This document shows, one piece after another, positions 10,254-52,379 of a stretch of 52,510 nucleotides of DNA; position 1 is the stretch's first letter; each line of letters starts with the position of its first letter. The DNA comes from Bacillota bacterium (GTDB taxonomy: Bacteria > Sysuimicrobiota > Sysuimicrobiia > Sysuimicrobiales > Segetimicrobiaceae): assembly GCA_021324295.1 (NCBI GenBank), contig JAJPJJ010000038.1:1-52510 (forward strand), written 5' to 3'. The translations under genes were made by a program, and so were the position numbers. The notes beneath the pieces are model-generated. The model did not search any database. It saw nothing but the letters and a program-made list of their open reading frames with translations, and had not been told where the DNA came from.

Positions 10254-10255
10254 CG

Positions 10256-33589: not shown

Positions 33590-33735
33590 CTCCCGGCGCC
33601 TCGCGGTGCCAGACCGGCACCGCAACCGGCAGCAGGAGCGCCTCGGGCGCAGCCCCGCGGCGGCGTCGCCAACACCCGGAGGCCGGCGGTGCCATAGGCC
33701 GCGCCCAGGCCGGCGCCGCCCGATCCGGCGCCGGG

Positions 33736-33769
33736 TGGCGGCGAACGAAGGCCGGCGCCGCGCTATCCT
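33736..33769 (+). promoter_or_regulatory. Long-spacer promoter (TGGCGG-N22-TATCCT)
   Basis: TGGCGG at 33736-33741 and TATCCT at 33764-33769, 22 nt apart; pilC ATG 33779 is 9 nt beyond the -10 box. Confidence 0.5.
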
Positions 33770-33778
33770 GTGCGTGCC

Positions 33779-34996: not shown

Positions 34997-34998
34997 CC

Positions 34999-36276: not shown

Positions 36277-36680
36277 GGGCGCGCAGGGGCGGCTCGCTCG
36301 TCGAGGCGCTCGTCGCCTCCGCCGTGCTGGCGGCGGTCGGGCTCGCGCTCGTGGAGTCGGTCGCCGCGGCGGCGAACGCCGGCACGCGCGCCGCGGCGGG
36401 CGCGCAGGCGCGCCGGCTGCTCGAGCAGGGCCTCGAGCAGGCCCGGAGCGGCCGCGGGGCGCCGTCCGGCGGGACCGCGGGGCCGTTCACGGTGGCAGTG
36501 GCGACCCAGCCGGCGTCGTTCGGCGCGCTCACCACTCCGGCGAACGCGCCGTCGTGCGGCGGCTGCAGCGGCGCGATCGCGACGGGCGGGGTGGGCAGCC
36601 TCACGCAGGTGACGGTCACGATCACGGATACGGCCGACGGATCGGTGGTGGCGCGCGGTGCCACGGTCACGCCGCCCTAG
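36273..36680 (+). CDS. Minor pseudopilin
   Basis: 135 residues from GTG 36273. Class III prepilin leader: MRARRGGSLVEALVASAVLA, with cleavage after Gly, Ser at +1 and Glu at +5, followed by a hydrophobic helix. The mature domain is short, with PSCGGCSG (cysteines) and VTVTITDTADGSVVARGATV. Ser in place of Phe at +1 is unusual. It overlaps pilT by 4 nt and the next gene by 23 nt, as expected for a pseudopilin operon that builds the pilus tip. Confidence 0.8.
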   Translation: MRARRGGSLVEALVASAVLAAVGLALVESVAAAANAGTRAAAGAQARRLLEQGLEQARSGRGAPSGGTAGPFTVAVATQPASFGALTTPANAPSCGGCSGAIATGGVGSLTQVTVTITDTADGSVVARGATVTPP

Positions 36681-37440
36681 CGGCCGCGCGCGGCGCGGCC
36701 AGGCGCTGCTCGGCGCGCTCATCGCCGCGGGCGCGGTCGGCCTGCTCGCGGCCGGCCTCTACGGGCTCGCGTTCGAGGGCGCGCAGGCCGGCCACGCGTC
36801 GCTCGCGCAGCTCGCCGCGATGAGCGCCGCGGAGGGCGGGCTCAACGTGACGCTCAAGATCCTCAACGACACCGCCAACCAGGCGCTCGTCCAGAACCTC
36901 GGCCAGGTGCCCCGCTCTACCGCGCAGGCGTGGGGCCAGCAGTCCACGTCGTACAGCGCCGCGCAGCAGAACTTCCAGGCGATGATGACGGGCTACGGGC
37001 CGTTCGAGTGGGTGGCGGCCTTCCCGGACACCGCGCAGGCCGCTCCCCCCGCCGCGATCGTCGGGGCCAGCGGCACGCTCCCGGGACCCGGCGGGACGCT
37101 CAAGTGGAGCGCGTACGCGGGCCTCATCGCGGTGCCCTCGCCGCTGCCGACCTGGCAGGACAACGGCGTCGTCGCGACCCTGACCTTCCCGATCGGCCTC
37201 CTGGCGCACGCGTGGGTGTGGGGGCCGCCGGACGCCAGCCCGGGCGCGGGCCAGTACCTGGGCGAGGTGACGGGCTACAGCCCGCCCAACGTCCCCGGCG
37301 CGATCGTCCTCACCTACCAGGACTGCCCGAACTACTACCAGCCCCCCTCGTGCGGCTACCCGACCGCGGTGCAGGTCACGGTGCCGGCAGGCCAGCTGAT
37401 CCTCAATGACCCGAACGCGCAGGTCCCGCCCCCGCCGTAG
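36658..37440 (+). CDS. PilX-like pilus assembly protein
   Basis: 260 residues from GTG 36658. A basic N-terminus and a single hydrophobic helix (GQALLGALIAAGAVGLLAAG) resemble PilX/GspK-type proteins, which lack a normal cleavage motif in some lineages. Then comes MSAAEGGLNVTLKILNDTAN, a helix often seen after the anchor (the SAAE..L pattern), and a large tryptophan-containing domain. The C-terminus has a Cys pair (YQDCPNYYQPPSCGYPTAVQ). It overlaps both neighbours, so it is co-translated in the pseudopilin operon. Confidence 0.7.
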   Translation: MPRSRRPSGRARRGQALLGALIAAGAVGLLAAGLYGLAFEGAQAGHASLAQLAAMSAAEGGLNVTLKILNDTANQALVQNLGQVPRSTAQAWGQQSTSYSAAQQNFQAMMTGYGPFEWVAAFPDTAQAAPPAAIVGASGTLPGPGGTLKWSAYAGLIAVPSPLPTWQDNGVVATLTFPIGLLAHAWVWGPPDASPGAGQYLGEVTGYSPPNVPGAIVLTYQDCPNYYQPPSCGYPTAVQVTVPAGQLILNDPNAQVPPPP

Positions 37441-37948
37441 GGCGTTCACGCTCGTCGAGGCGCTCGTGGCGCTCGCGATTGTCGCCATCAGTGCGACCGT
37501 TGCCATGGGGGCCTGGCAGCGCACGCAGGAGGCCGCGACCCTGAGGCAGGCGCAGATGCAGGTCGCCGCGATCCTGCGGGACGCGGTCGCGCGCACGCAG
37601 CAGGCGACCGGGGCGCCGGTGCAGGCGGGGGTGGCCTTCCAGGCCAATAGCGGCGTCCTCCAGGAGTACGTGAACACGGGCGGCGGCTGGCAGGCCGCGC
37701 AGCCGGGCGGCAACCTGTCCCTCAGCCTGCCGCCCGGCGTCGTGGTGCAGAGCTGGTCGTTCGACCAGACCGGGTTCGCGAGCTGGCCATACGGGGCGAC
37801 GGCCATGCGGGCCCAGAGCGGAGAGACGGACACGGGCGTCTACGAGCAGGTTGCGGGGGTGACCTCGCCCGGGAGCGTCACAATAGCCTCGACGCACGGG
37901 ATGACCGCGACGGTCTACGTGACCAGGGCCGGGACGGTCTGGTACTGA
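37406..37948 (+). CDS. Type IV pseudopilin (GspH/FimT-like)
   Basis: 180 residues from ATG 37406, overlapping the previous gene by 35 nt. Leader MTRTRRSRPRRRA, cleavage before FTLVEALVALAIVAISATVA with Glu at +5. The long helix continues as QEAATLRQAQMQVAAILRDA, and the C-terminal domain is beta-rich (GMTATVYVTRAGTVWY). The AILRDAVARTQQ stretch after the helix fits GspH/FimT-type pseudopilins. Probably part of the tip complex. Confidence 0.8.
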   Translation: MTRTRRSRPRRRAFTLVEALVALAIVAISATVAMGAWQRTQEAATLRQAQMQVAAILRDAVARTQQATGAPVQAGVAFQANSGVLQEYVNTGGGWQAAQPGGNLSLSLPPGVVVQSWSFDQTGFASWPYGATAMRAQSGETDTGVYEQVAGVTSPGSVTIASTHGMTATVYVTRAGTVWY

Positions 37949-37963
37949 CGCGGGAGGCGCAGC

Positions 37964-38395
37964 ATGCGGTACGGTGCGTGTCGGCGCGGCTTCACGCTCG
38001 TGGAACTCATCGTCGCGCTGGCCATCCTCGTCGTTTTGGCGGTATTCGGCCTGCAGCGCTTCGCGGCCGCGCAGAAGCAGGCGCAGCAGAACGCGCAGTG
38101 GGCCCAGGCCCAGGCGCTCGCGCAGGCGGTGAGCGCGTTCTATGCCGTGAACGGCTGCTATCCCCCCAGCCCCGGAGACAACCAGATGCCCGCGGGGCTT
38201 GCCCCCTACGTCGGCGGGACGTGGCCCATGGGGTACCAGTACGTCGCGTGGTCGTGCACGTCGTACTGCGTGAACGCATCCTCGGGCGGGACCGCCAACG
38301 GCATCGGGGTGATCGCCGACGCGCTCTACCAGGGCATCTTCTTATCGAGCGACATGGTGGTCCTCGTCTACTACCAGCCCGTGCCGGTGTGCTGA
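37964..38395 (+). CDS. Type IV pilin-like protein
   Basis: 143 residues. Leader MRYGACRRG, cleavage before FTLVELIVALAILVVLAVFG with Glu at +5. The mature domain contains QALAQAVSAFYAVNGCYPPS and the Cys pair WSCTSYC plus a final VPVC, so a disulfide-bonded loop is likely, as in type IVa pilins. GGGAGG lies upstream of ATG 37964. One of a run of pilins with very similar helices but different heads. Confidence 0.82.
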   Translation: MRYGACRRGFTLVELIVALAILVVLAVFGLQRFAAAQKQAQQNAQWAQAQALAQAVSAFYAVNGCYPPSPGDNQMPAGLAPYVGGTWPMGYQYVAWSCTSYCVNASSGGTANGIGVIADALYQGIFLSSDMVVLVYYQPVPVC

Positions 38396-38430
38396 GGCTG
38401 TGCGGCCGGCGCGGCGGGGTCGAGGTTGAG

Positions 38431-38865
38431 ATGCGCAGGGGGTTCACGCTCATCGAGCTCATCGTCGCCCTCGGCATCGTGGCCGTGATGGCCGCGGTCG
38501 GCCTGGGCGTGCTCGGCGGCGTCCAGCGGAAATCCAACGACAACATCGCGATCGGGATCGTCGCCCAGCTGGGCAGCAACATGTCGCACTACGCCGCGTT
38601 CAATGCCGGCGCGTATCCCGCTAACATGTCCGCGGCCACATGGGCGCAGATGATCGCGGCGCTGGGCAGTTACGCGGAGCTGCCGTCCGCGACACCCAGC
38701 GTCCTTCAGAACTTCACGGGATACGTTGACACCACCGGCAGCACGTTCCAGTTTGTCTTCACGGCCAAGAACGGCACGGGGGCGTGGTACTGCCACGACC
38801 CGAACGGCATGGCGCAGCTCAGCGGCACCCCGAGCGGCGGCGGCCCGTGGTCGGGGTGCCCGTGA
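38431..38865 (+). CDS. Type IV pilin-like protein
   Basis: 144 residues from ATG 38431, preceded by GAGGTTGAG. Leader MRRG, cleavage before FTLIELIVALGIVAVMAAVG. Then VAQLGSNMSHYAAFNAGAYP, TGYVDTTGSTFQFVFTAKNG and CHDPNGMAQLSGTPSG, ending in Cys-Pro. The very short leader and disulfide-type cysteine pair are typical of minor pilins. Its stop overlaps the next GTG (GTGA). Confidence 0.82.
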   Translation: MRRGFTLIELIVALGIVAVMAAVGLGVLGGVQRKSNDNIAIGIVAQLGSNMSHYAAFNAGAYPANMSAATWAQMIAALGSYAELPSATPSVLQNFTGYVDTTGSTFQFVFTAKNGTGAWYCHDPNGMAQLSGTPSGGGPWSGCP

Positions 38866-39959
38866 CCATGGTGCGGAGAATCATCTCCGTGGCGCTCGCC
38901 GCGGCCGGCATGGCGGCCGTCATGCCCGCGGTCCCGCTTTGGAGCGGAGCGGCCGCGCGCGCGGAGGTCAGGAACGTCCCGCTCGCGAGCGCGCTCGCCG
39001 GCCCCGTGCCGGTCGAGATCGGCGTCGGCCGCGTCGCGCTGCTCGATGTCGCCCCGCACCGGGTCGTGGTCGTGTCGACGAGCGACCCCACGGTCGCGCA
39101 CGCGGTCGTCCGCGGCAGCGATGTGCTGCTGGTCGCGCTCCGGCCGGGCGTGACGACGGTCGGGGTGGGCCTCGGCGGCAGCCTCGCGGCGTCGTTCCGC
39201 GTGACCGTCACCGATCAGGACAGCGGCGTCCGCGCGGTGCGCCTGGACGCGGGGAGCGCGGCGGCCCGGGGATCCGACACACCCGTTTCGAAGCCGTCCG
39301 GCGGGCAGCCGGCGGCGCAGGCCGGCGGCAGGGGCGCCGCGCGTGCGTCGGACGCGGCCGGATTCGTGTCGTCGCTCAGCGGTCCGCAGCGCGCCGCGCT
39401 CGCGGCGTACCTTCAGGACCAGTCGCTCGGCAGCCTGGCCGCGCTGCTGCGCGCGCTCAGCCCGGCGCAGCAGGCCGAGTTCATGCGGCTCGTCTCGGCA
39501 TCCTCCGATGAGGTGGCGAGGGTCGTGGGAAGCCGTCCCTCCGGAGCCCAGACGGCCGAGCGCGGGCAGGCCGCTCCGGACGGCTCCCAGGCGCCGCCAG
39601 GCGGCCGCGCGGCGGCCGCGGGCGCGCCGGCCGGCGCCGACGTCAGCGCCCCCGCCGGGGTCCGCGTAACCGTGGTGCCCACGTGGACGGGGCCGATGCT
39701 CTGGCTCAGCTACGTGCTCGAGAACCACACCTCCGCCGCGCTGCGCGCCGATCCCGCCAACATGTCCGTGTCCGGCGCGGCGGGGCCCGTGACCGTGCGG
39801 CAGCTCGATCCTGGCGATCCCGGGGTGATTTCGCCGGGAGGCGTGGAAACGGGAGTGATCGTGCTCGCACCGGCCCGCGGATCCGACGTGCGCGTCAGCT
39901 GGCCGCTCGGAGGCGGCGGCGCGGCCGTGCGGGTCGCTGTCAGGCGGCCAGCGCCGTAG
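38862..39959 (+). CDS. Secreted pil_N-domain protein, paralogue of the gene at 47233
   Basis: 365 residues from GTG 38862 (or ATG 38868). A signal peptide is near residues 5-35. Next is a domain resembling the N-terminal domain of pilus/secretin proteins: VPVEIGVGRVALLDVAPHRV, then STSDPTVAHAVVRGSDVLLV and ALRPGVTTVGVGL. A helical middle follows (LSGPQRAALAAYLQDQSLGS and LLRALSPAQQAEFMRLVSAS) and a C-terminal beta domain (MLWLSYVLENHTSAALRADP). The middle and end match the protein at 47233, which follows pilQ. Probably a periplasmic pilus accessory factor. It converges with pilB, leaving 27 nt between stops. Confidence 0.65.
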   Translation: MTMVRRIISVALAAAGMAAVMPAVPLWSGAAARAEVRNVPLASALAGPVPVEIGVGRVALLDVAPHRVVVVSTSDPTVAHAVVRGSDVLLVALRPGVTTVGVGLGGSLAASFRVTVTDQDSGVRAVRLDAGSAAARGSDTPVSKPSGGQPAAQAGGRGAARASDAAGFVSSLSGPQRAALAAYLQDQSLGSLAALLRALSPAQQAEFMRLVSASSDEVARVVGSRPSGAQTAERGQAAPDGSQAPPGGRAAAAGAPAGADVSAPAGVRVTVVPTWTGPMLWLSYVLENHTSAALRADPANMSVSGAAGPVTVRQLDPGDPGVISPGGVETGVIVLAPARGSDVRVSWPLGGGGAAVRVAVRRPAP

Positions 39960-39986
39960 CGGAGCCCGGCGCCGTTCCGCCTCCCG

Positions 39987-41690
39987 TCAGTCGGCGGCGC
40001 CCCCTCCGTTCGTCCACAGCGCCTCGCGCAGCACCTCGCTCGTGGTCGTGCGGCCAGCTTTCACCTGCTCGATCCCGTTTCCAAGCAGCGTGGGGAATGT
40101 GCTCATCCGCTGGATGTCGAGCGCCGTCACCTGCGCTGTGATCCGCGATGAGATCTCGTCGCTGACGACCAATAGCTCCCCGATCGGCAGCCTCCCCACA
40201 TAGCCCTGGTAGCACGCCGGGCACCCGCGTCCCACGCGCTCGGTCTCCGGCAGGTCCGGCAGCGCCTTGCGGAGCGCCTCCGGCACCGGGCTGGGCTGCC
40301 CGCAGGCGCGGCACGTGGCGCGCACCAGCCGCTGGCTCAGGGCCGCCCGCAGCACGTCGGCGACGTAGTAGTGGGGGACGCCGAGGTTGATGAGGCGGGG
40401 GATGGCCGCGGCCGCGGTGTTGGTGTGCAGGGTGCCGAGCACGAGATGGCCGGTGAGCGCCGCCTGGACGGCGATCTGGGCGGTCTCGAGGTCGCGGATC
40501 TCGCCGACCATGATCACGTCGGGGTTCTTGCGCAGCGCGCTGCGCAGCAGCACCGGGAACGTGCGCCCGGCCCGGACGTCCACCGGCACCTGCACGACCC
40601 CGGGGATCGCCTGCTCGACCGGGTCCTCGACCGTGTAGATCGCCTTGCCCGGGAACAGCGCGTGGATGCGGCGGACGAGGACGGCGAGCGTGGTGCTCTT
40701 CCCGCACCCGGTGCGGCCGCACACGAGCACCAACCCGTGTGGCAGGCGCGACACCTGGTCGAGCCCGCGGGCGATGTCCGGGGTGAACCCCAGCGCCTCG
40801 AGCGTCTGGATCCCGGCCTGCGTGAACACCCGCACGACGGCGTGCTCGCCCCGCGCGTCCGGGGAGGTCTCGATCCGGAGGTCGTAGCGCGGCCGCTGGG
40901 CCGTGGGCCACGGGATCTTGCCTGACTGCGGGAGCCGGTGCTGGCTGATATCCAAGCCGGCCAGGAGCAGCAGGCGCGAGACGACGCCCGCGAGCGCGCG
41001 GCGGGGGATGGGGACGCCCGGGGCCTGCAGCTGGCCGTCGACCCGGAACCGCGCCTCGCACCCGGTCCCGCCCTCGTCGAACCGGGCGACGTGGACATCG
41101 CTCGCGCCGAGCGCGATCGCGCGCTCGATGATGTCGGTGGTCAGCCGGACGATGAACGTGTCCTGGCCGAGCGCCCGCATCCGCGCGGGGTCGGCCTCGA
41201 CCTCGTGAACCGTCTCCTCGGTCTCGCCGCCTTCCTCGGCCGTCGGCAGGTCGCTCGCCGGGACGACCACGAGCCTGAGCCTGCGGCCGCGGGCAGCCTC
41301 GCGCAGCGCGTCCCGCAGCTGCACGGGCTCCGGGTCCGCCACGGCCACCGCGAGCTCCTCGGGCGCGCTCGCGAGCACCGCGAGCGGCCAGCGGGCGCGG
41401 ATCTCGTCGGGTACCTCGCGCGCCAGCGCGGGATCAGGCGGGGAGTCCAGGCGCCGCCACTCCAGCCCCCAGCGGACCGCCCGCGCCTCGGCGACCTGCA
41501 GCAGCGTGAGCCGGCCGCGGCCGACGAGGGCCGTCACGGGATCGTCGGGCTGCTGGCGCGACGCCGCCTCCCACTCGTCCGGCGTGACGTAGGCGCGGGC
41601 GATCAGGATGTCGCGGACCGGGGCTCCAAAGAGAGCCGGGCGGGAGGTCCCGCCCGGCTCCTGGGTGGCGCGCTCCTGCGCTACTGGCAC
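39987..41690 (-). CDS. pilB: Type IV pilus assembly ATPase PilB
   Basis: 567 residues, GTG start at 41690 overlapping the pilin stop by 10 nt. The N-terminus (VTALVGRGRLTLLQVAEARA followed by WGLEWRRL) resembles the MshEN domain that binds cyclic-di-GMP in related ATPases. The core has ASDVHVARFD, Walker A CGRTGCGKSTT near 325-335, YTVEDPVEQAIPGVVQVPVD (Asp box), NPDVIMVGEIRDLETAQIAV (Walker B) and LTGHLVLGTLHTN. A zinc site is formed by CRACG and CPACY, as in PilB/GspE. It powers pilus extension. It lies on the opposite strand from the rest of the cluster. Confidence 0.93.
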   Translation of the reverse strand: MPVAQERATQEPGGTSRPALFGAPVRDILIARAYVTPDEWEAASRQQPDDPVTALVGRGRLTLLQVAEARAVRWGLEWRRLDSPPDPALAREVPDEIRARWPLAVLASAPEELAVAVADPEPVQLRDALREAARGRRLRLVVVPASDLPTAEEGGETEETVHEVEADPARMRALGQDTFIVRLTTDIIERAIALGASDVHVARFDEGGTGCEARFRVDGQLQAPGVPIPRRALAGVVSRLLLLAGLDISQHRLPQSGKIPWPTAQRPRYDLRIETSPDARGEHAVVRVFTQAGIQTLEALGFTPDIARGLDQVSRLPHGLVLVCGRTGCGKSTTLAVLVRRIHALFPGKAIYTVEDPVEQAIPGVVQVPVDVRAGRTFPVLLRSALRKNPDVIMVGEIRDLETAQIAVQAALTGHLVLGTLHTNTAAAAIPRLINLGVPHYYVADVLRAALSQRLVRATCRACGQPSPVPEALRKALPDLPETERVGRGCPACYQGYVGRLPIGELLVVSDEISSRITAQVTALDIQRMSTFPTLLGNGIEQVKAGRTTTSEVLREALWTNGGGAAD

Positions 41691-42214
41691 TTGATGCCGG
41701 GCGTCGCCGGTGTGCCGCCCGCGCCGAGGTCGACGACGCCGTTCACGGGGTCGGCGCAGATCACGTGGTTGGTGCCGCCCGTCGCGGTCGCCGTGATCGT
41801 GTACGTCGGCGGGGTGGTGCCGTCGATGGGCTCGTAGGACCAGCTCGCGAACACGTTCGCGAACGCGGGCAGGTTCTGCACGCCCACGGTCCCGAGGTCG
41901 GCCACGAGGGCGTTGTAGCTGGCCGCGTCGGTGTTGGCCGCGCTGTCGGTGTTGACCGTGTCGGTCGACGGGGTGCCCTTCTCGGGGTAGAGGCCGGTCG
42001 GGTTGTAGCTCTGGAACGTCGCGAGCCCGGTGTTGAGCTCGTCCATGACCTGCATCATCGAGTGCGTGTGCGCCTGGGCGATCTGGCCGCTGTAGATCGA
42101 GATGCCGACCGCGGCCAGGATGGCGACGACGGCCATCGCGACGATGAGCTCAATGAGCGTGAACCCCCGGGCCCGGCCCCTGCGGAGCCGGGTGGCGAGA
42201 TGAGCGAAAACCAT
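41681..42214 (-). CDS. pilA: Major type IV pilin
   Basis: 177 residues. GGAGGA lies 6 nt before its ATG (reverse strand). Leader MVFAHLATRLRRGRARG, cleavage before FTLIELIVAMAVVAILAAVG with Glu at +5. Then YSGQIAQAHTHSMMQVMDEL, TGLATFQSYNPTGLYPEKG and a C-terminal ITATATGGTNHVICADPVNG, ending GIKCQ with a disulfide-type Cys pair. First gene of a minus-strand unit with pilB and served by its own promoter, so it is the likely major subunit. The pilin at 32544 shares its C-terminus. Confidence 0.88.
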   Translation of the reverse strand: MVFAHLATRLRRGRARGFTLIELIVAMAVVAILAAVGISIYSGQIAQAHTHSMMQVMDELNTGLATFQSYNPTGLYPEKGTPSTDTVNTDSAANTDAASYNALVADLGTVGVQNLPAFANVFASWSYEPIDGTTPPTYTITATATGGTNHVICADPVNGVVDLGAGGTPATPGIKCQ

Positions 42215-42273
42215 GCGTATCCTCCGCAGCCGGGCCCGAGTGTGGACGGTGTGAGCCCGGAGACTGCACGCTC

Positions 42274-42307
42274 AGCATACCCGCGCGCGTCTTTCGCCGG
42301 CGCGCAA
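42274..42307 (-). promoter_or_regulatory. Long-spacer promoter of the pilin-pilB unit (TTGCGC-N22-TATGCT)
   Basis: On the minus strand, TTGCGC (42307-42302) and TATGCT (42279-42274) are 22 nt apart. About 50 nt of leader with a GGAGGA site precede the pilin ATG. It shows that the long-spacer pattern is strand-independent. Confidence 0.65.
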
Positions 42308-42375
42308 CCCGTCGGACGCCCGCGGCGCCCCGGCGCTGCCGCGCCCGCGCGCGGAAGGACGCGCCGGCGCGCGGG

Positions 42376-42409
42376 TTGTGCCCGCGGCGCCGGCCGCGCC
42401 GGGTACAGT
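42376..42409 (+). promoter_or_regulatory. Long-spacer promoter of the pilM operon (TTGTGC-N22-TACAGT)
   Basis: TTGTGC at 42376-42381 and TACAGT at 42404-42409, 22 nt apart, about 30 nt before pilM. Back to back with the minus-strand pilin promoter. Confidence 0.6.
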
Positions 42410-42440
42410 AGTCCGCGACGACGGCACGAGGCGGTGGAGC

Positions 42441-43313
42441 ATGGTCGGCGTTGATGTGAGCCTGCGCCCCTGGACGTGGGCCGCGCCGCGCGGCGGGCGC
42501 TGGCTGTTCGGCGACCTGCCGGACGGCGACCCGGCCCGGGCGCTGCGCGAGGCGCTCGCCTCTTCCCACGTGCGCGAGAAGGCGGTTGCGCTCTGCATCC
42601 CGTCGCGGTCGGTCGTCTGGGACGCCATCCCCGGGCTCCGCGCGGCGCCGCGCCAGGCCCGGAAGGCGGCGGCGCTGGCCGCCGCCGCGCGCCTGCGTGC
42701 CGCGGCGCGGGACGTCGTGGTGAGCGTCGCGGACGCGCGCGACGGGGTGACGTACGTGGGGGCCGAGCGCGCCACCGTCGAGGCGGCCGTGGCCCCGTGG
42801 CTGCGGGCCGGGTTTTCGGTCCCCGTGGTCGAGCCCGCGGCGGTGAGCCTGCTGCGCGGGATCGGCAGCGACGCCCCCGTCGTGGTCGTCCGGACGGGCG
42901 CCGGCGAGGTCGAGATCGTGGCCGGGAGCCGCGACCGCCTCCTGTTTGCCCGCCACCTGCCGCTGCCGGAGGAGGCGGGGCAGGCGGACGCGGTGCGCCT
43001 CGAGGTCGACGCCACGATCGACGCGGCCCGCAAGGAGGGCGCCGCGATCGAGCGCGTGCTGGTGAGCGGCCGCGGCGATCTCGGGGCGCTCGCGGCGGCG
43101 TTCGCGGGCCGCGCGGCCGCGGCCGCTCTCTCGCCCGCCCACCGGGCGCCGGAGGTCCCTTCGTGGGCCCTGGCCGCCGCGAGCGCGGCGCTGTGGCGGG
43201 CGGGCGCGCCGGCGTCGAGACAGCGGGAGCAGCGCGCGGGCGGCGTGTTCGAGCGCCTGCTCGCGGCCGCGCGGCGGCGCCGCTGGCGCGAGGGGGAGGA
43301 CCATGCGGCATAA
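42441..43313 (+). CDS. pilM: PilM-like actin-fold protein
   Basis: 290 residues from ATG 42441 (GGTGGAGC upstream). Starts MVGVDVSLRPWTWAAPRGGR, a phosphate-1-like beta hairpin, then REKAVALCIPSRSVVWDAIP, AGFSVPVVEPAAVSLLRGIG, APVVVVRTGAGEVEIVAGSR and KEGAAIERVLVSGRGDLGAL. This is the order of the actin-like PilM fold, somewhat shorter than the usual 350 residues. PilM is the cytoplasmic ring that binds the N-terminus of PilN. It overlaps pilN by 11 nt. Confidence 0.8.
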   Translation: MVGVDVSLRPWTWAAPRGGRWLFGDLPDGDPARALREALASSHVREKAVALCIPSRSVVWDAIPGLRAAPRQARKAAALAAAARLRAAARDVVVSVADARDGVTYVGAERATVEAAVAPWLRAGFSVPVVEPAAVSLLRGIGSDAPVVVVRTGAGEVEIVAGSRDRLLFARHLPLPEEAGQADAVRLEVDATIDAARKEGAAIERVLVSGRGDLGALAAAFAGRAAAAALSPAHRAPEVPSWALAAASAALWRAGAPASRQREQRAGGVFERLLAAARRRRWREGEDHAA

Positions 43314-43830
43314 CCTCGCCGTCCGCCAGCCCTTCTGGCACGGCCCGCTCCTCGGCTGGGCGCTGGTGGCGTGCGCGCTGATCGGAGGACTGGCGTGGGG
43401 CGGCGCGCTCGACGCGCGCCTGGGCGCCCTCGGGCGCGGCGTCGCCGCGCAGCGCGCGCGCGCCGCGCGGCTGCGGGTGGAGCTGCGCGAGGCCGAGCGG
43501 ATCGCGGCCCCGAGGCGCCGGGCGCAGGCGATCATGGCGGCGCTCGACCGCGACGCCGTGGATCCCGCGGTGCTCCGACGGATCGAGCCCGCGGCGCCCG
43601 AGGACGTCTGGCTCACGAGCGCCGATCTCGCGAGAGGGCGCCTCGCCATCGACGGCAGGGCGGTCACGTGGCGCAGCGCCGCCGGGTTCGCGGACGCGCT
43701 GTCGCGCGTGCCCGGACTCGCGAACGTCCAGCTCACGTCGCTGCAGGCGGCCGGCTCGGGGCGCGCCGGCTACGACTTCCACATCACCGCCGACGCGGCC
43801 GGACCGGCCCCCGCGGAGGCGCTCCGGTGA
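43303..43830 (+). CDS. pilN: PilN-like inner-membrane alignment protein
   Basis: 175 residues from ATG 43303. A short cytoplasmic N-terminus (MRHNLAVRQPFWHGPL) in the place of the PilM-binding INLLP motif, one membrane helix (LGWALVACALIGGLAWG) and a coiled coil (ARAARLRVELREAERIAAPR) lead to a ferredoxin-like domain (VDPAVLRRIEPAAPEDVWLT and FADALSRVPGLANVQLTSLQ). The lineup is that of PilN. It lies between pilM and pilO with overlaps on both sides. Confidence 0.8.
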   Translation: MRHNLAVRQPFWHGPLLGWALVACALIGGLAWGGALDARLGALGRGVAAQRARAARLRVELREAERIAAPRRRAQAIMAALDRDAVDPAVLRRIEPAAPEDVWLTSADLARGRLAIDGRAVTWRSAAGFADALSRVPGLANVQLTSLQAAGSGRAGYDFHITADAAGPAPAEALR

Positions 43831-44444
43831 CTCGGCGCACCGCCATACCCGCATGGGTCCCCGCGGCGCTCGCCGCCGCCCTCTTCGCCGGCCTCTACGG
43901 CCTGTGGGTGCGGCCCACCCAGGCGCGGATCGCCGCGGCGGAGGAGCAGCTGCGGCAGGCGCGGCAGCAGGCGGGATCGCTCGAGGTCCAGATCCAGCGC
44001 GACCGCGCGGTCCCGCCCGTGCCGCTGCCCGTGACCAAGGCCGCCTTCGACCGCCTGTGGCCGGACGTCGTCGCGCGCGCGCAGGCGGCGGGGTACGCGC
44101 TCCAGGGCGTGACGTTCTCGGCGGCGCCGCCGCTGCCGTCCCCGGGGCCGTCCGAGGGAGGCGCCGCGGCGGGGGCCGCGACCCCGCTGGAGATCACGGC
44201 GCGCTTTGCTGGTCCGTACCTGCCGCTCGACGAGGCGCTCAGGCGCATGCAGAGCGTCCTGCCGCTGTGGTCGTGGAGGTCGATCCACGTCTCGGCCCAG
44301 CAGGGAGTTCAGGGAGGCGCGGAGCTCTCCGTCGCGGTGGACGGCGTCGTGCCCGTCGAGGGGCAGATCGCCGGGCCGCGCGGCACGGTGCCGCGCACTC
44401 CCGCGCCAGCGCCTCCGCCCCCTCCGCCAGGGAGTCAGCCGTGA
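43827..44444 (+). CDS. pilO: PilO-like inner-membrane alignment protein
   Basis: 205 residues, GTG overlapping the pilN stop. One N-terminal membrane helix (WVPAALAAALFAGLYGLWV), a coiled coil (RIAAAEEQLRQARQQAGSLE) and a periplasmic ferredoxin-like domain (ITARFAGPYLPLDEALRRMQ and ELSVAVDGVVPVEG). The proline-rich C-terminus is likely flexible. PilO pairs with PilN to connect the inner-membrane platform with the secretin. Confidence 0.8.
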   Translation: MTRRTAIPAWVPAALAAALFAGLYGLWVRPTQARIAAAEEQLRQARQQAGSLEVQIQRDRAVPPVPLPVTKAAFDRLWPDVVARAQAAGYALQGVTFSAAPPLPSPGPSEGGAAAGAATPLEITARFAGPYLPLDEALRRMQSVLPLWSWRSIHVSAQQGVQGGAELSVAVDGVVPVEGQIAGPRGTVPRTPAPAPPPPPPGSQP

Positions 44445-45448
44445 GCGCGCCGCGAGCTCGGTGGTGGATCGCCGGAGCGCTCGCGGCGCTCGTGGGCGCT
44501 GTGGGCGCCGTCGCGGCCGTGAGGGCGCCGGCTGGCCCCGCGCCGCCGGGCACACGCCTCGTCAGGGACGCGGCGGGACGGTTCGAGATTTCGATCCCTG
44601 CCTCGTGGGAGACGCGCATCGCTCCGCCCGGGCGCGGCGCCGCGGCGCTTGTCGCCAGCGCCCCTGGCGCGGGAGACGGCGCCGGGCCGAGCGTGGCCGT
44701 GACGGTCGAGGCGCTGCCGCGCCCGATGACCGCGCAGGAGTACGCGCACGCCGGCATGCCGCTCCCTGGGGCGGCGATGTCGGCCCTGCGGGTGCTGAGC
44801 GAGGGGCCGGCCAGCGTCGGCGGCTCGCCAGGCTACGCGCGCACGTTCACGTGGATCTCCGGGAACGGGACGCCCACGTACACCGTGCAGGCGTATGTGG
44901 TCCGCGGCGCGCTCGGGCTGATCGCGACCGGCAGCACGCGGAACGCGCCTGAGGCTGTCTCGCGGGACTCGGGAGTCCTCAGAGGCGTCGTGCTGTCGCT
45001 GCGGGCGCTGGGCGCGGCCCAGGCGCCGCGCGGCGCGGCCGCCGGAGACGAGCGCGTCGCGGCTGGCCGGCGCGACCTGTTCGCCGCGCCTCCCAGCGCC
45101 GCCGAGCCGTCTGGATCGTCGCAGGGCGGCGTGACTCTCCCGCCCGTGCCGTCCGCGGGCGGCGTGCCGTTGCCCCCGATGCCTCCCACCGCGCCGCTGC
45201 TGCCGCCCGCGCCGGGAAGCGGCGCACCGCCGGCCCCAAAGCCGGCGCCGCCGCTGCCGCGCCTCGCGGCCGTGGTCCTGGGGCCGACGCCGCAGGCGGT
45301 GCTCAAGGGCGCCGACGGCGCGTACGCGATCGTTCGCCGGTCCGAGCGCACGCCGTGGGGGACGGTGGCCGCGATCCGCGCCTCTGGCGTCGTGCTCGAC
45401 ACCGGATCCGGAACGCGCACCATCTCGTGGACAGGAGGCTCGCCATGA
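44441..45448 (+). CDS. PilP-like protein fused to an N-terminal PsbP/DUF1795-like domain
   Basis: 335 residues, GTG overlapping the pilO stop. A membrane helix (WIAGALAALVGAVGAVAAV) is followed by a domain typical of PsbP/DUF1795-like proteins (GRFEISIPASWETRIAPPG and YARTFTWISGNGTPTYTVQA). After AAGRRDLFA and a long proline-rich linker comes a PilP/GspC-like beta domain (LPRLAAVVLGPTPQAVLKGA and GTVAAIRASGVVLDTGSGTR). The RDLF box and final domain are what PilP shows before docking onto the secretin. The N-terminal domain is not usual for PilP and is an oddity. Confidence 0.65.
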   Translation: MSAPRARWWIAGALAALVGAVGAVAAVRAPAGPAPPGTRLVRDAAGRFEISIPASWETRIAPPGRGAAALVASAPGAGDGAGPSVAVTVEALPRPMTAQEYAHAGMPLPGAAMSALRVLSEGPASVGGSPGYARTFTWISGNGTPTYTVQAYVVRGALGLIATGSTRNAPEAVSRDSGVLRGVVLSLRALGAAQAPRGAAAGDERVAAGRRDLFAAPPSAAEPSGSSQGGVTLPPVPSAGGVPLPPMPPTAPLLPPAPGSGAPPAPKPAPPLPRLAAVVLGPTPQAVLKGADGAYAIVRRSERTPWGTVAAIRASGVVLDTGSGTRTISWTGGSP

Positions 45449-47217
45449 CCCGCACGCTCGCCGTTCTCGCGCTGGCCGCCGCGCTGGCCGCGCCGGCCCC
45501 GGCCGGGGCCGCGCCGCCTCCGCGTCAGGCGGCGGCGGCGACCCTCACGCTCGACTTCGTGGACGTGCCGCTCGCGCAGGCGCTGTCCACGCTCGCGCGC
45601 GCCGCGGGCGCGGATCTGGTGGTCGAGGGCCAATTGGCCGGCACCGTCACCCTGCACCTAGCCCGCCAGACGTTCGCGCAGGCGCTCGCGATCCTGGCGC
45701 AGGCGTACCGGCTCGACGTCCGCGCGGTGAGCGGCGGCTACCTGGTGCGCCAGCTCGAGGCGGGGCCGATGGTGGTCGCGGCGCCCCAGGCGCAGTCCCA
45801 GGATCCGGTCGTCCGCGCCTACCGCCTGCGGTACGCGCCGGCGAGCGAGGTGGCGGACGAGCTCAGGACGGTGCTGGGGATCGCCCAGTCGCAGAAGGGG
45901 CAGTCGCTGGTGGTCGGCCAGCCGCCGCAGGTCTCCTCGGCGGCCGGCGCCGCGGGGACCGCCCAGCCCGGCGCTCCGCAGCCGACCGCGGCTCCGGCGC
46001 CGGCCCCGGGCGGCGCCGGGTACGGCGGCGCGCAGCCGCCCTCGCCGACGCCCGCCCCAACCCCGGCTCCAGCGCCCGCCCCGGCGGTCCCGCCGCCGCC
46101 ATCCCCCTCGGGCCCGGCGGCCGGAGGGCCGCAGGGCGCGTCTCAGCAGCAGGCCGTCGCCGTCGCGAGCGACGACCGCACGAACACGGTCGTCGTGACG
46201 GCGCCGTTCGCGCTGCAGGTGCAGATCCAGGAGACGATCGAGCGCCTGGACCGCCCGGAACCCGGCCCGGCCGTCGTGGGCCCCCAGGGCGCGGATCCGG
46301 GAGCCGGCCAGGGAGGCGAGCGGGTTCTGCCCCAGACCTACCGGTACGCCGTTCACTACGCGGACCCGCAGGCGATGTCGCAGGTGCTCCAGGCCGAGGT
46401 GCCGGGCGTCTCCGTCGTGACCGACCTGCGGACGAACACCCTGCTCGTCACAGGCGATGCTGCCATGCAGCGGCGCGCCGCCTCCGTGCTGCGGGCGCTC
46501 GACACCCCGGCCGCGCAGATCGTCATCCAGACGGAGATCCTGGACCTGTCGAAGACCGCGGCGAGCCAGCTCGGGATCCAGTGGACCTGGCAGCCGTACA
46601 CGATCAACCAGGTGAGCATCGGCGGGGCCCCGATCCTCCAGCAGGCGCAGCCCCTGGCGCAGGCCGCGGGGATGGTGCCGATCGTCGCCACGCTCAACGC
46701 CATGGTGAGCAGGGGCGAGGGCAAGGTGCTCGCCAACCCGCAGGTGGCCACGCAGGACGGCGTGCAGGCGTCGATCAACGTCGGCCAGGCGCTGTACGTG
46801 CCGATCACGAACGTGACGAACGGGGTCGCGACCACCACGCTGCAGACGATCAACGCGGGCATCCTGCTCCAGGTCACCCCGCGGCTCAACCGGGACGGGG
46901 TCGTCACCAACACGATCAACGTGCAGTCGAACTCGATCTCGGGGTTCACGCCGCAGGGGTACCCGGAGATCACCACGCGCGCGGTGCAGTCGATCATGAC
47001 GGTGCGGGACGGCGAGCCGATCCTGATCGGCGGCCTCATCTCGCAGACGACGACCGAGGCGATCCAGAAGATCCCGCTCCTCGGCGACATCCCGATCATC
47101 GGGAACCTGTTCCGGTTCACGAGCAAGACCGACGAGTACGACAATATCGTCGTAGTGCTCACGCCGCGCGTGCTCGCGCCAGGCGCGGCCGCCCCGCTGG
47201 GGTCGTCCGGGAGCTGA
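45445..47217 (+). CDS. pilQ: Type IV pilus secretin PilQ
   Basis: 590 residues, ATG overlapping the previous stop. Signal peptide TRTLAVLALAAALAAPAPAG with an Ala-rich cleavage site. STN-like domain (LTLDFVDVPLAQALSTLARA and VTLHLARQTFAQALAILAQA), NolW modules (VRAYRLRYAPASEVADELRT, TYRYAVHYADPQAMSQVLQA) separated by a long proline-rich linker, then the secretin pore: GKVLANPQVATQDGVQASIN, GILLQVTPRLNRDGVVTNTI, PILIGGLISQTTTEAIQKIP and LLGDIPIIGNLFRFTSK. It forms the outer-membrane gate, which implies a cell with an outer membrane. Confidence 0.93.
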   Translation: MTRTLAVLALAAALAAPAPAGAAPPPRQAAAATLTLDFVDVPLAQALSTLARAAGADLVVEGQLAGTVTLHLARQTFAQALAILAQAYRLDVRAVSGGYLVRQLEAGPMVVAAPQAQSQDPVVRAYRLRYAPASEVADELRTVLGIAQSQKGQSLVVGQPPQVSSAAGAAGTAQPGAPQPTAAPAPAPGGAGYGGAQPPSPTPAPTPAPAPAPAVPPPPSPSGPAAGGPQGASQQQAVAVASDDRTNTVVVTAPFALQVQIQETIERLDRPEPGPAVVGPQGADPGAGQGGERVLPQTYRYAVHYADPQAMSQVLQAEVPGVSVVTDLRTNTLLVTGDAAMQRRAASVLRALDTPAAQIVIQTEILDLSKTAASQLGIQWTWQPYTINQVSIGGAPILQQAQPLAQAAGMVPIVATLNAMVSRGEGKVLANPQVATQDGVQASINVGQALYVPITNVTNGVATTTLQTINAGILLQVTPRLNRDGVVTNTINVQSNSISGFTPQGYPEITTRAVQSIMTVRDGEPILIGGLISQTTTEAIQKIPLLGDIPIIGNLFRFTSKTDEYDNIVVVLTPRVLAPGAAAPLGSSGS

Positions 47218-47232
47218 CAAGGAGGGGTGCAC

Positions 47233-48354
47233 ATGATGACGATGAAAGAGGCCGCCTGGGCGCTGCGGATCGCCGCGGCGGCGGCGGCGATCTCGGCGCT
47301 GCCGATGGCGGCGCCGTTCGCCGCGGTGGCCGCCGACCCCGCGCTCGGGGCACCGCCCGCGGTGACCGTGCCCGAGGCGTCGGTCCTGTCGTCCCCGTAC
47401 ACGGTCGAGCTCGCCCCTACGGGCGAGCTGCGGGTCATCAGCTTCCCGGACGCGCTCGTGTCGTCCGTGGTCGTCGCGAAGCCGTGGCTCCTCACCGTGC
47501 TGGTCCAGGGGCACGACGCGGTGCTGCAGGCCAAGGCCAGCGGCGGCGAGACGCAGGTGATCGTGTACGCGGGGGGCGCGGGCACGCTGTGGAACGTGGT
47601 GATCGCTCCCCACAAGCCGGCCGCCTCCCGGATCGTCGTCTCCGCGGCGCCCCGCGAGGCCGCCTCGCCGGCGCCCGGCCTCCCCGCGCGGCCCGGCACC
47701 GGGCAGGCGGCGCCCGCCGTGCCCCGCGCGCTCGCGGCCTTCGCGGGCACCCTCGGCCCGCAGCAGCGGGCCGCGTTCGAGGCCTGGCGGCGGGATCCGA
47801 CGATGAAGCGCCTCAGCGACTTCCTCGCCGCGCTCGACGCGACGCAGCGCGCGGAGTTCGAGCGGCTCGTCGGCGCCGGCGACGTGACACTGCCGGGCGC
47901 CCAGGCCGCGCCGCGCGTCGTCGAGACGACGACGGTGATCCGCGCGCCCGCGGAGCCGCAGCGGGCCGCGGACGGCGCATCGGCGACAGCGGCCGCGCCG
48001 GGCGGGCAGGAAGCGCCCCGCGCCGCGCAGCCGCTGTACGCCTACCCCGAGGACGTGCCCTCCGGGATCACCGTCGCCGCGCAGGCCGAGCAGGCGGGGA
48101 GCGGGATCGTCGTGCGCTACGCGATCCACAACGGCCTGGGAGTCGGGCTCGAGCGCGTGCGCGTCGCGGCGGTGGACGGGCACGGGACCGAGGCGGTGGC
48201 CGCGGACAGCGGCCCGCGCGCCGTGGCGCCGGGGGCCGACGCCCGCGGCGCCGTGAGCGTCGCCGCCTCCGCGCTGCCGGTCACGCTGCGCTGGACGTGG
48301 GGCAAAGCGTCCAAAGCGGGCGCGGCGGAGTTCTACGTGCTCGTCACGCACTGA
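47233..48354 (+). CDS. Secreted pil_N-domain protein, paralogue of the gene at 38862
   Basis: 373 residues from ATG 47233, just after GGAGGGG. Signal peptide around residues 8-37. A pil_N-like domain (YTVELAPTGELRVISFPDAL and VVAKPWLLTVLVQGHDAVLQ), then LGPQQRAAFEAWRRDPTMKR and FLAALDATQRAEFERLVGAG, which align with the helical middle of 38862, and a C-terminal beta domain (GSGIVVRYAIHNGLGVGLER and LPVTLRWTWGKASKAGAAEF). The position after pilQ suggests a secretin-associated periplasmic factor. Confidence 0.65.
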   Translation: MMTMKEAAWALRIAAAAAAISALPMAAPFAAVAADPALGAPPAVTVPEASVLSSPYTVELAPTGELRVISFPDALVSSVVVAKPWLLTVLVQGHDAVLQAKASGGETQVIVYAGGAGTLWNVVIAPHKPAASRIVVSAAPREAASPAPGLPARPGTGQAAPAVPRALAAFAGTLGPQQRAAFEAWRRDPTMKRLSDFLAALDATQRAEFERLVGAGDVTLPGAQAAPRVVETTTVIRAPAEPQRAADGASATAAAPGGQEAPRAAQPLYAYPEDVPSGITVAAQAEQAGSGIVVRYAIHNGLGVGLERVRVAAVDGHGTEAVAADSGPRAVAPGADARGAVSVAASALPVTLRWTWGKASKAGAAEFYVLVTH

Positions 48355-48361: not shown

Positions 48362-49183
48362 ATGGGACTTCTGTGCGTCGCCGCGGGCGCGGCGGCCGGG
48401 GCGGGCGCCGACCTCGCCGCGGCGCGGGTCGCCGGGCAGCGTCCGACGCCGCGGACGGCCGCCGCGGCCTCGGCGGTCGGGGCGCTCACCGCCGCCGCGG
48501 TGGCGGCGCATCCCGCGCACACCTGGCACGGATGGCTGGCGCCGCTGTGGGCGTGGGGGTGGCTCGTTGCGGCCGACGTCGACCTGCGGGCGCGCGTGGT
48601 CCACGACCTCCACGCGGCCGCGCTCGCGGCTTTGGCGCTCGCGGCCGCGGGGCTCGACGGCCAGGCGGTGATCTCGATAGCCGGCGGACTGGCGGTGGCA
48701 GGGATGCTGGCGGCGCTCAACTGGGCGGCAGCGTCCGGGCGCCGGGGCGCGTGGCCCGTCGCCGCCGCCGGAGCCGCGGGCATCGTCCTGGCGGCCGCCG
48801 CGTGGGCGATGATGGCACGTGCGACGGCCGGCCTGCCGGTCCGCGGCGCGGGCGATCCCCGGGTTGTGCTTGCGCTCCTGCTGGCCGCGGCGCCGCCCGG
48901 GCTGACGGTCGCGCTGCGCCGCATGGCGCGCGGCTGGGACGGCGAGGTGGTGGGCTGGGGGGACGTGATGCTCGCGGGCGTGATGGGACTGTGGTTCGGG
49001 ATCAGGTTGGTATGGGCGCCGCTCGGCATTGGGATCGGCGCCGCGGCCGCCATGGGAGCGGCGCGGTGGGCGGCCGCGGCGTGGGCGCGGCGGCGGCCCC
49101 CGTGGCTGCGGGAGGCGCAGCCGACCGTTCCGGGGCTGCTCGTCGGCGCCGTGCTGGGGGTCGTGCTTGCCACGCCTTCGTAG
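48362..49183 (+). CDS. pilD: Prepilin peptidase (A24-type aspartic protease)
   Basis: 273 residues from ATG 48362. Multi-pass membrane protein with about seven alanine-rich helices. The two catalytic aspartates are in ADVDLRARVVHD (in place of the usual DLR..IIPN) and in EVVGWGDVMLAGVMGLWFG (the GxGD motif). There is no N-terminal cysteine-rich methylase domain, so it may cleave but not methylate, like TadV/CpaA peptidases. It would process the pilins of this cluster. Confidence 0.8.
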   Translation: MGLLCVAAGAAAGAGADLAAARVAGQRPTPRTAAAASAVGALTAAAVAAHPAHTWHGWLAPLWAWGWLVAADVDLRARVVHDLHAAALAALALAAAGLDGQAVISIAGGLAVAGMLAALNWAAASGRRGAWPVAAAGAAGIVLAAAAWAMMARATAGLPVRGAGDPRVVLALLLAAAPPGLTVALRRMARGWDGEVVGWGDVMLAGVMGLWFGIRLVWAPLGIGIGAAAAMGAARWAAAAWARRRPPWLREAQPTVPGLLVGAVLGVVLATPS

Positions 49184-49189
49184 GCCGCG

Positions 49190-50155
49190 GTGCCGCCGGA
49201 GCCCCACTCCCCGCACGCGGTGAGACAGGCCGATCCGATCTCCTCCGGGCTGGCCGCGCTCGCGCGCGATCTGTCGGTATCGCGCATCGCGGTGCGCGTC
49301 CGCCGCGACGGCAGCGGCCGCGACGCCGTGGTCGCGGAGGTCACCAGGAACGGGACGGCGGCCCCGGACCCGGTGATCCAGGACCGCGCGGACCTCGAGC
49401 GGCTGATCGCCCGGCTGCTCGGCCCCGACCGCGCGCTCGGGACCGTGTCCATCCGCGGCCTGCACGGCCTCGCCGCCCTGCCCCCGGCGGCCGACGCGCC
49501 GCTGCTGGTGCTCGAGCGGACCGCGCCGACGAGGCCTGCCCCCGACGGCGGCGGCGCCTTCCCTCCCGCCGCCGCAGCGGCCGCCGCGGCGCTCCTGCGG
49601 GCCGGCGCGGGCGTGGTGCTCGCCGGCCCGGACGGCCCGCACATGGGCGCGGCCATCCGCGGCGTGTGCGCGCGGCTGGGTCCGTCGGCCAGCATCGTCC
49701 TCGTCGAGGACGGCCCGCAGACGCCGCTCCCGATCAGCGCCGTGCGCCTGCGGGACGTTCCCTCAGGCGCGCTCAGGGCGTTCAGGCACGCCGTCGTCGT
49801 CGTCAACCGCGCCGCGCCGCCGTGCCTGCCGGCCCTCTCCGGCGCCGTGCTCGTCACGGCCGCCGCCCGCACGCCCGAAGCGGCGCTGGCGCGCCTCGCG
49901 GCGGAGAGCGCCGCGCCGCCGCCAGTGCTGGCGCGCCTGTGCGCGGACGCCGCCCCGCTGCTCCTGTGGTTCGGCTCGGGCCGGGGCGCATGCCGTCTGA
50001 CGGCGGCCTACGAGATCCTGCCGACGCCCGACGCGTCCGGCCTGCCCATGCTGCAGATGCTCACCGGGCTCGACCCGGTGAGCGGCGCGCTCGTCCCGAC
50101 CGGCGCCGTGCCAGCCGATCCGGCGCTGCGGGACGTGTGGAACGTCCCCGCATAA
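49190..50155 (+). CDS. Unknown protein, possibly a degenerate secretion ATPase
   Basis: 321 residues from GTG 49190. The layout faintly recalls TadA/VirB11-type ATPases: an N-terminal IAVRVRRDGSGRDAVVAEVT and a central AGVVLAGPDGPHMGAAIRGV where Walker A would be. Then SIVLVEDGPQTPL sits in the place of the IEDT box, and AYEILPTPDASGLPMLQMLT with FSALVPTGAVP-like ending (GALVPTGAVPADPAL) follows. The lysine and serine/threonine of Walker A are missing, so ATP hydrolysis is not expected. It may be a structural subunit evolved from such an ATPase. The identity is a guess from pattern; it lies between the peptidase and the last pilin gene. Confidence 0.4.
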   Translation: MPPEPHSPHAVRQADPISSGLAALARDLSVSRIAVRVRRDGSGRDAVVAEVTRNGTAAPDPVIQDRADLERLIARLLGPDRALGTVSIRGLHGLAALPPAADAPLLVLERTAPTRPAPDGGGAFPPAAAAAAAALLRAGAGVVLAGPDGPHMGAAIRGVCARLGPSASIVLVEDGPQTPLPISAVRLRDVPSGALRAFRHAVVVVNRAAPPCLPALSGAVLVTAAARTPEAALARLAAESAAPPPVLARLCADAAPLLLWFGSGRGACRLTAAYEILPTPDASGLPMLQMLTGLDPVSGALVPTGAVPADPALRDVWNVPA

Positions 50156-50207: not shown

Positions 50208-50242
50208 TTGCGACGCCTCCCCTTCTCGCCCCGTGGTATCCT
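50208..50242 (+). promoter_or_regulatory. Long-spacer promoter (TTGCGA-N23-TATCCT)
   Basis: TTGCGA at 50208-50213 and TATCCT at 50237-50242, 23 nt apart, about 95 nt before GTG 50337. It shows that the TGA-rich gene has the same kind of promoter as the other backbone genes. Confidence 0.5.
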
Positions 50243-50336
50243 ACCGCCAGCACGGCGGCGCCGCGGCCGCTCCGCACCCTCCGGCGCGGCCGGTTCCGGG
50301 CGCCTCACCCGAGGGGAGAAAGGAGGAGACGAGCAG

Positions 50337-52252
50337 GTGAGACACTGATCCACGCGTTTTGCGCTTCACGCGCCTTCACAACCGCATAGCGAAGCAGTTT
50401 CCAGTGCGAACACGAATGCCAGTGCCGACCGTTCGTTCACGGGCCAAGCCAGGCGCGGCTTCTCGCTCACCGAGGCGCTGGTCGCCCTGGTGATCACCGC
50501 GCTCGTGGTCTCGCTCGGGGTCGCGATGGTCAACGCGTTTGCCACAGGCGGCCGGACGCTCCCCATTCAGGCGCCCGCGCCGCGAGCGACGCCCGCGTCG
50601 AGGCCATGATCGGCGAGCTCCGCAACGCGGTCGCGATCAGCCAGATCTCGCCCAACCAGGTCACCGCCGTGATCAACACCGCCGGAAACGCCAGCGCGAC
50701 CACGACGGTCAACGGCACCGCCACTGGGCAGTACGCGGTCAGCTACTCCTTCTGAGCCGCCACCGGCGCGCTGTACCGGAACGGCGGCGGCACGGCCAGG
50801 TTCTGAGCGGCCGGCTGAGTCAGCCCCAAGCTGCCGGCGCTGTGAGGCCTGCCGACCCCGCCCACCGCGCCGTCGGTCAACCCGCCGGGACCGCAGCCGC
50901 AGCCGCCCAGCTGCGCGAGCCCCTGCTACAACCCCAGCGGCGCGTACGTCGCCTACACCGCCTACGCCTGGAGCGGCGGCACCGCCTACTACACGACCAA
51001 CTCCTCCGGCGCCTCCCAGAGCGGCGGCGTCGGCCCGGGCGAGTGAAACGGGTGCACGATGTACCGCAACCTCTGAACCGGCAGCGGTTACAACCAGCCC
51101 ATGGGCAGCAGGAGCTACAACCTCAGCGGCAACCCGTCCTCGGAGTCCTACCTGGGCCTCCAGTCGTACTACTGCGACTGGACCCGGAACGGCCCGACGA
51201 TCAGCGGCGGCTACATGGCCGTCCGCAACGACCGGTACGGCACGCTGTACTGCACGGGCCGGTGATGGTGATACGCCTGCTTCACTGGCTACGTGACCGC
51301 GATCTACTACGTGCCGATCTCCAGCTCGACCGCCTACTACTACCTGCCGAGCTGCGGCTGCTACCTCAGCCAGAGCTGATACAACGCGGACGTCACCAAC
51401 TGGAACAACTACCAGGCCGCGCTCAACACCTACAACCAGCAGATGGCCGCCTGGCAGTGAGCCAAGAACCAGTGGTGAGCGTACGACACCAGCTACAACG
51501 CCTACGCGTGAAAGGTCAAAGGGTGGAACGTCGCCGCCCAGAACGCCGTCGTCAACACCGTGATGCAGGGCGGGAAGACAGGCACCAGCACCGTCACCCA
51601 GTGGAACACCGCGGCCGTCTGGCAGCTCGTCGCCGACAACATCCAGAGCCTCACCTTCACCGGCTACGACCAGAACATGCGGCCCACAACCTGAGCCGGG
51701 GAGGTCCTGGTCCTCGGCATCAAGGTCCAGTACCCCGGACAGCCGATCGAAGAAGAACAGCTCACCCTGCAGGGGACGCATGCCTTCTCCGCAGCCAAGA
51801 CGTACCCCCTCACCATCCCCCCGGCACCGCCGGACCCGCGGTGACCGACGCCGTGGCCCAGCTACAATGGGTGGACCGCTTGACACTGACTCGACAGAGG
51901 CGGGCTGGGAGCGGCGGCATCCAATCCGGGAGCCTACGGATACGGCGAACTAAGGGGTCCTGGACCGTTCACCCCTAGCGTCCTCGGCAGCGCCAGCGTC
52001 GGACAAGCGTACGTGGGCCCTGGTGTATCCGTGACAGTCTGATTCCAAGTGTGAGTCGGCGGACAGACATTCACAGGCCATGGCTCCGGGTACGGCCCAA
52101 CCGCGTGAGCCGCCAGAATGGCTGCGTTGGATGCCGTCGACCAATCCGCCGGCGGTCGCCTTGGGAAAGACCAGGGAGTATCCCCCGGTAGCGCCGGCGT
52201 CTGACTAGGCAGCGCACACGACGCGTTCGGGGTTGGCTCGTTCAACCCGTAA
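50337..52252 (+). CDS. PilW-like pilin with 20 in-frame TGA codons read as sense
   Basis: AAGGAGG precedes GTG 50337. The opening frame (codon 4 is TGA, 50346) leads to a long leader and GFSLTEALVALVITALVVSL, a class III prepilin helix. Between about 50550 and 50575 the coding frame steps by -1, after which AASDARVEAMIGELRNAVAI continues the pilin helix. From there to TAA 52250-52252 one frame holds 20 TGA codons and no TAA or TAG. Third positions are almost all G or C up to about 51690. The text is Tyr/Trp/Gly-rich, for example WQ*AKNQW*AYDTSYNAYA*, and includes the PilW-type VADNIQSLTFTGYDQNM. Reading TGA as Trp gives a smooth protein. The domain may end at TGA 51842 (about 500 residues) or run on to TAA (about 637). 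Under the standard code only short pieces would be made. Confidence 0.75.
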
Positions 52253-52318
52253 CGTCGACTCACGGGACATCTGAACAGACCGATCAGCACTTCATGCTGC
52301 CCGACCTATCGCCGGGCC

Positions 52319-52345
52319 CGAGCCGCCCCATAAAGGCGGCTCGGT
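52319..52345 (+). terminator. Intrinsic terminator-like hairpin
   Basis: GAGCCGCC, loop CCATAAA, GGCGGCTC, then GGTTGCTT. An 8-bp GC stem about 65 nt after the TAA at 52250, closing the pilus transcript. The T tract is short. Confidence 0.6.
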
Positions 52346-52379
52346 TGCTTGCAGGGAGTCCCCACACGGTGTTTATCAT
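52345..52379 (+). promoter_or_regulatory. Possible promoter (TTGCTT-N23-TATCAT)
   Basis: TTGCTT at 52345-52350 and TATCAT at 52374-52379, 23 nt apart, immediately downstream of the terminator hairpin and ahead of the last gene start. A weak match to the common pattern. Confidence 0.3.

Follow-up and report, generated by a model that had tools for sequence, protein, structure and literature searches.

In-frame TGA codons in a type IV minor-pilin-like gene are best explained by past or present use of UGA as a sense codon

Toward the end of the window (the whole stretch of DNA that was analyzed, 52,510 bases), a type IV minor-pilin-like gene is interrupted by TGA, and by no other stop codon, in an otherwise normal reading frame. 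This TGA-only interruption is real, and decay, chance, and sequencing error do not explain it; the best explanation is that UGA is, or was, a sense codon in this gene. In the reading that we favor, and hold with moderate confidence, the gene would be a real coding sequence in which UGA is, or was, most likely read as tryptophan by means supplied in trans, while UGA remains a stop codon in the host and in the rest of the contig. A full-length pilin would need such a decoder, for which an aberrant tRNA-Trp(CCA) on another contig, C118, is the candidate. The window is contig C8 of the metagenome-assembled genome (MAG) G000 (4.02 Mb, 129 contigs, 96% complete, 4.7% contamination), has a GC content of about 75%, and carries the features listed in Table 1.

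Table 1. Features of the pilus region in the window
Feature	Position	Strand	Basis or remark
Type IV pilus/type II secretion operon: T2SSF, T2SSE ATPase, prepilins, PilN, secretin	33698..48354	+	Pfam; related operon on G002:C28
Membrane protein in the prepilin peptidase position	48362..49183	+	Homologue is the last gene of the related operon, G002:C28
Gene of unknown family directly upstream of the pilin gene	49190..50155	+	Second copy on C97
Shine-Dalgarno-like AAAGGAGG and spacer, before the GTG start	50318..50336	+	Sequence; identical in the C97 copy
Prepilin leader and N-terminal helix: GTG start 50337, codon-4 TGA 50346, ...RRGFSLTEALVALVITALV...	50337..50570	+	PF07963 N_methyl
−1 frameshift relative to the C97 copy (GG in C8, GGG in C97)	50569..50572	+	Alignment; the codon model changes frame at the same place
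Pilin body, minor-pilin-like; 13 in-frame TGA, 9 TGG, 0 TAA/TAG	50571..51841	+	Codon model, stop counts
3' extension of the TGA-rich frame; 7 TGA, end at TAA 52250; status uncertain	51842..52252	+	Weak coding signal
GC-rich stem-loop GAGCCGCC-CCATAAA-GGCGGCTC, then TTGCTT; possible transcript end	52307..52350, approximate	+	Read from the sequence

The 20 TGA codons listed in the initial annotation lie exactly where it placed them and share one frame (starts = 2 mod 3), namely, at 50753, 50804, 50816, 50843, 51044, 51074, 51263, 51269, 51377, 51458, 51476, 51509, 51692, 51842, 51881, 51887, 52040, 52052, 52106, and 52202. As was also stated there, this frame has no TAA or TAG before the TAA at 52250, which we confirmed from 50390 onward. 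The third-position GC content in the frame was 0.91 to 0.96 over most of 50551–51600, and a codon model trained on G000 ranked it as the best of the six frames at approximately 50580–51820, except for a near tie with a minus frame at approximately 50680–50740; the codon model and the stop counts ruled out coding on the minus strand or in another frame. The coding signal faded near the TGA at 51842 and was weak beyond it. A-ending codons other than TGA amounted to 2.7% in 50571–51841 versus 3.5% in 19 other genes of the window, none of which contains an in-frame stop, and this low value argues against general decay. The earlier statement that such codons are rare stands for the first two thirds of the frame but does not hold in the last third. 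TGA accounted for 13 of the 22 TGR codons (59%), whereas 8.4% of the remaining NNR codons in this stretch ended in A (Fisher p = 2.6e-7). None of 3000 dinucleotide shuffles of 50570–51841 produced a frame that had 13 or more TGA and was free of TAA and TAG; the seven TGA codons without TAA or TAG in 51842–52249 were matched in 3 of 5000 shuffles, which is still unusual.

An ordinary pseudogene, i.e., a decaying gene that has collected random nonsense mutations, or a chance pattern would agree with the frame-disrupting shift at 50570 and with the weak coding signal after 51842. We nevertheless consider this very unlikely because the 424-codon best frame has accumulated 13 TGA but neither TAG nor TAA despite its 24 CAG, 35 TAC, and 22 TGR sites, the shuffles never reproduced the pattern, and the other third positions are uneroded. 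A sequencing or assembly artefact might be suspected for a gene at most 2.2 kb from the contig end that has lost one G in a GGG run. Errors are, however, blind to the reading frame, yet the TGA excess is confined to one frame, and the codon-4 TGA is present in two contigs, which leaves this explanation with hardly any probability. No second TGA-riddled gene was found in approximately 470 kb scanned from G000 and related genomes; recoded genomes have in-frame TGA in many genes, and here only the pilin gene has them.

The assignment of the gene as a pilin, made in the initial annotation, was supported by its prepilin N terminus, which matched PF07963 (N_methyl) with 25.3 bits against a Pfam cut-off of 21.2; the pilus-tip role proposed there is putative. 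The start frame reads V-R-H-TGA-STRF...ARRGFSLTEALVALVITALVVSLGVAM, with the N-terminal methylation motif following the leader peptide as in type IV prepilins. Because no ATG, GTG, or TTG lies between the codon-4 TGA and this motif in the same frame, the TGA must be read if the protein is to be made. TGA is indeed the fourth codon after the start, as had been proposed, but its frame (0 mod 3) is not the TGA-rich one (2 mod 3); the −1 shift at approximately 50570 joins the two. Like type IV minor prepilins (PF07963, PilW-like), the gene has a leader, an GFSLTEALVALVI motif, and a position at the end of a pilus operon; unlike them, it has TGA at codon 4 and throughout, and its body is unmatched. 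The body is long, Tyr/Asn/Gly-rich, and without a family match. AlphaFold2 without an alignment was uninformative for the gene (pLDDT 34 and 41), with the single-sequence model of the 3' extension at pLDDT 41. Given the weak coding signal in 51842–52249, the last seven TGA codons are less secure, and the protein may end at TGA 51842, which could be a true stop, or at TAA 52250. The stem-loop downstream was not flagged by a terminator scan, which wants more T.

A second copy of the locus on contig C97 shares 90% identity with C8 from 48462 to 50634 and has the same GTG, the same codon-4 TGA, and the same ribosome site. The leaders of the two copies differ in length by 18 nt, and the frame is kept across this indel. 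At the place where C8 has GG, the C97 copy has GGG. The diverged C97 copy is dead: an in-frame TAG follows its N-terminal helix, a frameshift breaks its reading frame, and it is fused to the terminal part of a DDE transposase (PF13701, E = 1e-4, under the curated cut-off). The C8 copy may likewise be inactive because of its −1 frameshift. This shift, the end of the coding signal near 51842, and the broken C97 copy were absent from the initial annotation. The gene might be a dead relic that used to be translated with UGA as sense, perhaps in a former host or through a decoder since lost, and that is now unexpressed and starting to decay; the frameshift in C8, the multiple lesions in C97, the failure to find a UCA tRNA, and the lack of a homologue in relatives are all in keeping with it. 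We regard it as somewhat unlikely, since, one base aside, both the codon bias and the frame free of TAA and TAG are preserved, so that any death must be very recent. A target of a diversity-generating retroelement was also considered and rejected: a DNA search of the own genome returned only 56 nt on C97 and no near-identical template repeat.

The residue is probably tryptophan, which is favored as a first guess because, among G/C-ending codons, only TGG becomes TGA by one transition. A whole-genome search of 100 relatives for homologues of the gene returned only a spurious proline-rich match, and no homologue of the pilin body was found in phages, plasmids, IMG/VR, or GTDB contigs. Searches of Pfam, NCBIfam, and PDB with TGA read as X, W, R, E, C, Q, or G returned no credible domain, so they did not identify the residue, and neighbor-residue statistics ranked control residues poorly and were of no use for this purpose. 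UGA might instead be a sense codon for another residue (e.g., Cys, selenocysteine, Arg, or Glu), decoded by a tRNA of its own that is encoded on a part of the element missing from the assembly. In favor of this, TGG by itself (2.1%) suffices for a Trp content like that of the contig's other pilins, the third-position GC rule would not constrain a residue that has only one codon, and the base after the codon differs, G never following TGG (0/11) but following TGA in 9 of 20 cases (p = 0.012), which is odd if both codons encode Trp. However, the assembly contains no such tRNA and the neighbor statistics pointed to no residue, and we judge this alternative to be distinctly improbable. Selenoprotein genes are recognized by SelB/SelC and a SECIS element after each UGA, and we know of no precedent for 13 to 20 selenocysteine codons in one bacterial gene.

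The host looks to use the standard code. None of the 46 tRNAs over the Rfam cut-off in the 96%-complete MAG, whose anticodons were read, has a UCA anticodon, and prfB, encoding RF2, is present and intact (500 bits, over the cut-off, no stops); a second, weaker release-factor match is probably RF1. Genes of the window end at 8 TGA, 7 TAG, and 2 TAA, the same mix as in the host, which agrees with the earlier observation that TGA is a stop in other genes here. TGA stops are as frequent in the element as in the host, so efficient suppression would be harmful to the element. The control of pilus display by a suppressor tRNA, a modified release factor state, or readthrough, as initially proposed, is hypothetical: the −1 frameshift, the lack of a UCA-anticodon tRNA among those found, and the intact RF2 all speak against a working control. 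The sense-UGA reading itself is supported by the 13 TGA without TAA or TAG and by the codon-4 TGA in both copies; the frameshift in C8, the dead C97 copy, and the intact RF2 count against it.

The sole tRNA-Trp detected in the MAG lies on C118 at about 4524–4597 and has a CCA anticodon, a 7-bp acceptor stem, normal anticodon and T arms, and an encoded G73-CCA, but its D arm is shrunken to 4 bp with a 3-nt loop. It scored weakly as a tRNA in Rfam (34 bits) and reached 32 bits, below the gathering score, as a tRNA-Sec; relatives have an ordinary tRNA-Trp gene. The host tRNA-Trp is probably not truly missing: contigs C27 and C74 end at the place where relatives carry it (tuf/secE), C27 approximately 0.2 kb upstream of secE and C74 inside an apparent tuf, which makes an assembly gap likely. 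In the relative G006, which also carries an ordinary tRNA-Trp, a second CCA-anticodon tRNA gene (C10:21085–21165) looks like a tRNA of the selenocysteine or serine type that bears the anticodon for the Trp codon; its acceptor stem and its variable arm are both long. In the Hirsh-type suppressor of E. coli, a D-arm change lets tRNA-Trp with CCA read UGA; the C118 tRNA is likewise altered outside the anticodon, in the D arm, although the former is a point mutation whereas in the latter the whole arm is reduced. In protists, UGA is read by a tRNA-Trp(CCA) whose anticodon stem has 4 bp, and such a stem also increases UGA readthrough in E. coli (PMC13092985). The C118 tRNA is also a structurally altered CCA tRNA-Trp and a possible UGA reader, but its anticodon stem has the normal 5 bp (CCGGT/ACCGG), which, like its CCA rather than UCA anticodon, speaks against the reading. 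It is a candidate UGA suppressor and no more.

C118 is a mobile-element-like contig of 21.9 kb with SSB, an ExoX-like exonuclease, and UvrD, and it is nearer to the window than most of the other sampled contigs in shared 13-mers and, relative to the first third of the window, in tetranucleotides; we infer that C118 and C8 belong to one element and that its tRNA would be the decoder. C8 itself looks like a mobile element from its gene content, which includes a primase, RecT, a PD-(D/E)XK nuclease, UDG, ribonucleotide reductase, sigma factors, and a DnaN-RecA fusion only approximately 60% identical to the host RecA on C106. In this fusion (29610–30947), a DnaN-like N-terminal domain precedes RecA; the small contig G005:C52 carries a related region, with 81% identity over 510 bases downstream. 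An intein splicing domain lies inside a helicase at 2740–5535 and a TnpB/Cas12f-like gene at 10166–11440, and the stem-loop CCCCGGACTGAAGTCCGGGG, common to 17787–17818 and C118:21460–21491, looks like IS200/IS605-type ends. The related pilus operon of relative G002 (L141:2310–17388 on C28) ends after the prepilin-peptidase position, without a TGA gene. The two operons sit on contigs of very different GC (75% in the window versus 60%), which suggests that the pilus operon is mobile. The membrane protein at 48362..49183 has no Pfam match, and the gene at 49190..50155 was not found in the searched relatives.

Stop-codon reassignment is known for whole genomes or phage gene sets, and the known UGA-to-Trp cases usually involve a cognate UCA tRNA, many affected genes, and, in bacteria, the loss of RF2. 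Like phages and bacteria using NCBI code 4, the pilin gene has UGA as a sense codon, probably for Trp, in a protein gene, in a host that may use the standard code; unlike them, it is a single gene at approximately 75% GC, with no UCA tRNA found and RF2 intact. In a more specific form, which we put forward as improbable, the mobile element would use UGA as Trp in one pilin gene, at codon 4 and 12 to 20 more sites, and synthesis of the pilin would require expression of the element's own structurally minimal tRNA-Trp(CCA), making surface display dependent on conditional reading of the stop codon. One gene saturated with a single stop codon, in a genome that stops at this codon and whose strong GC bias disfavors codons ending in A, would amount to gene-specific recoding. 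Such a case would make it possible to test how tRNA supply can let a mobile element gate a surface protein, and whether UGA can be read by a tRNA-Trp with a shrunken D arm.
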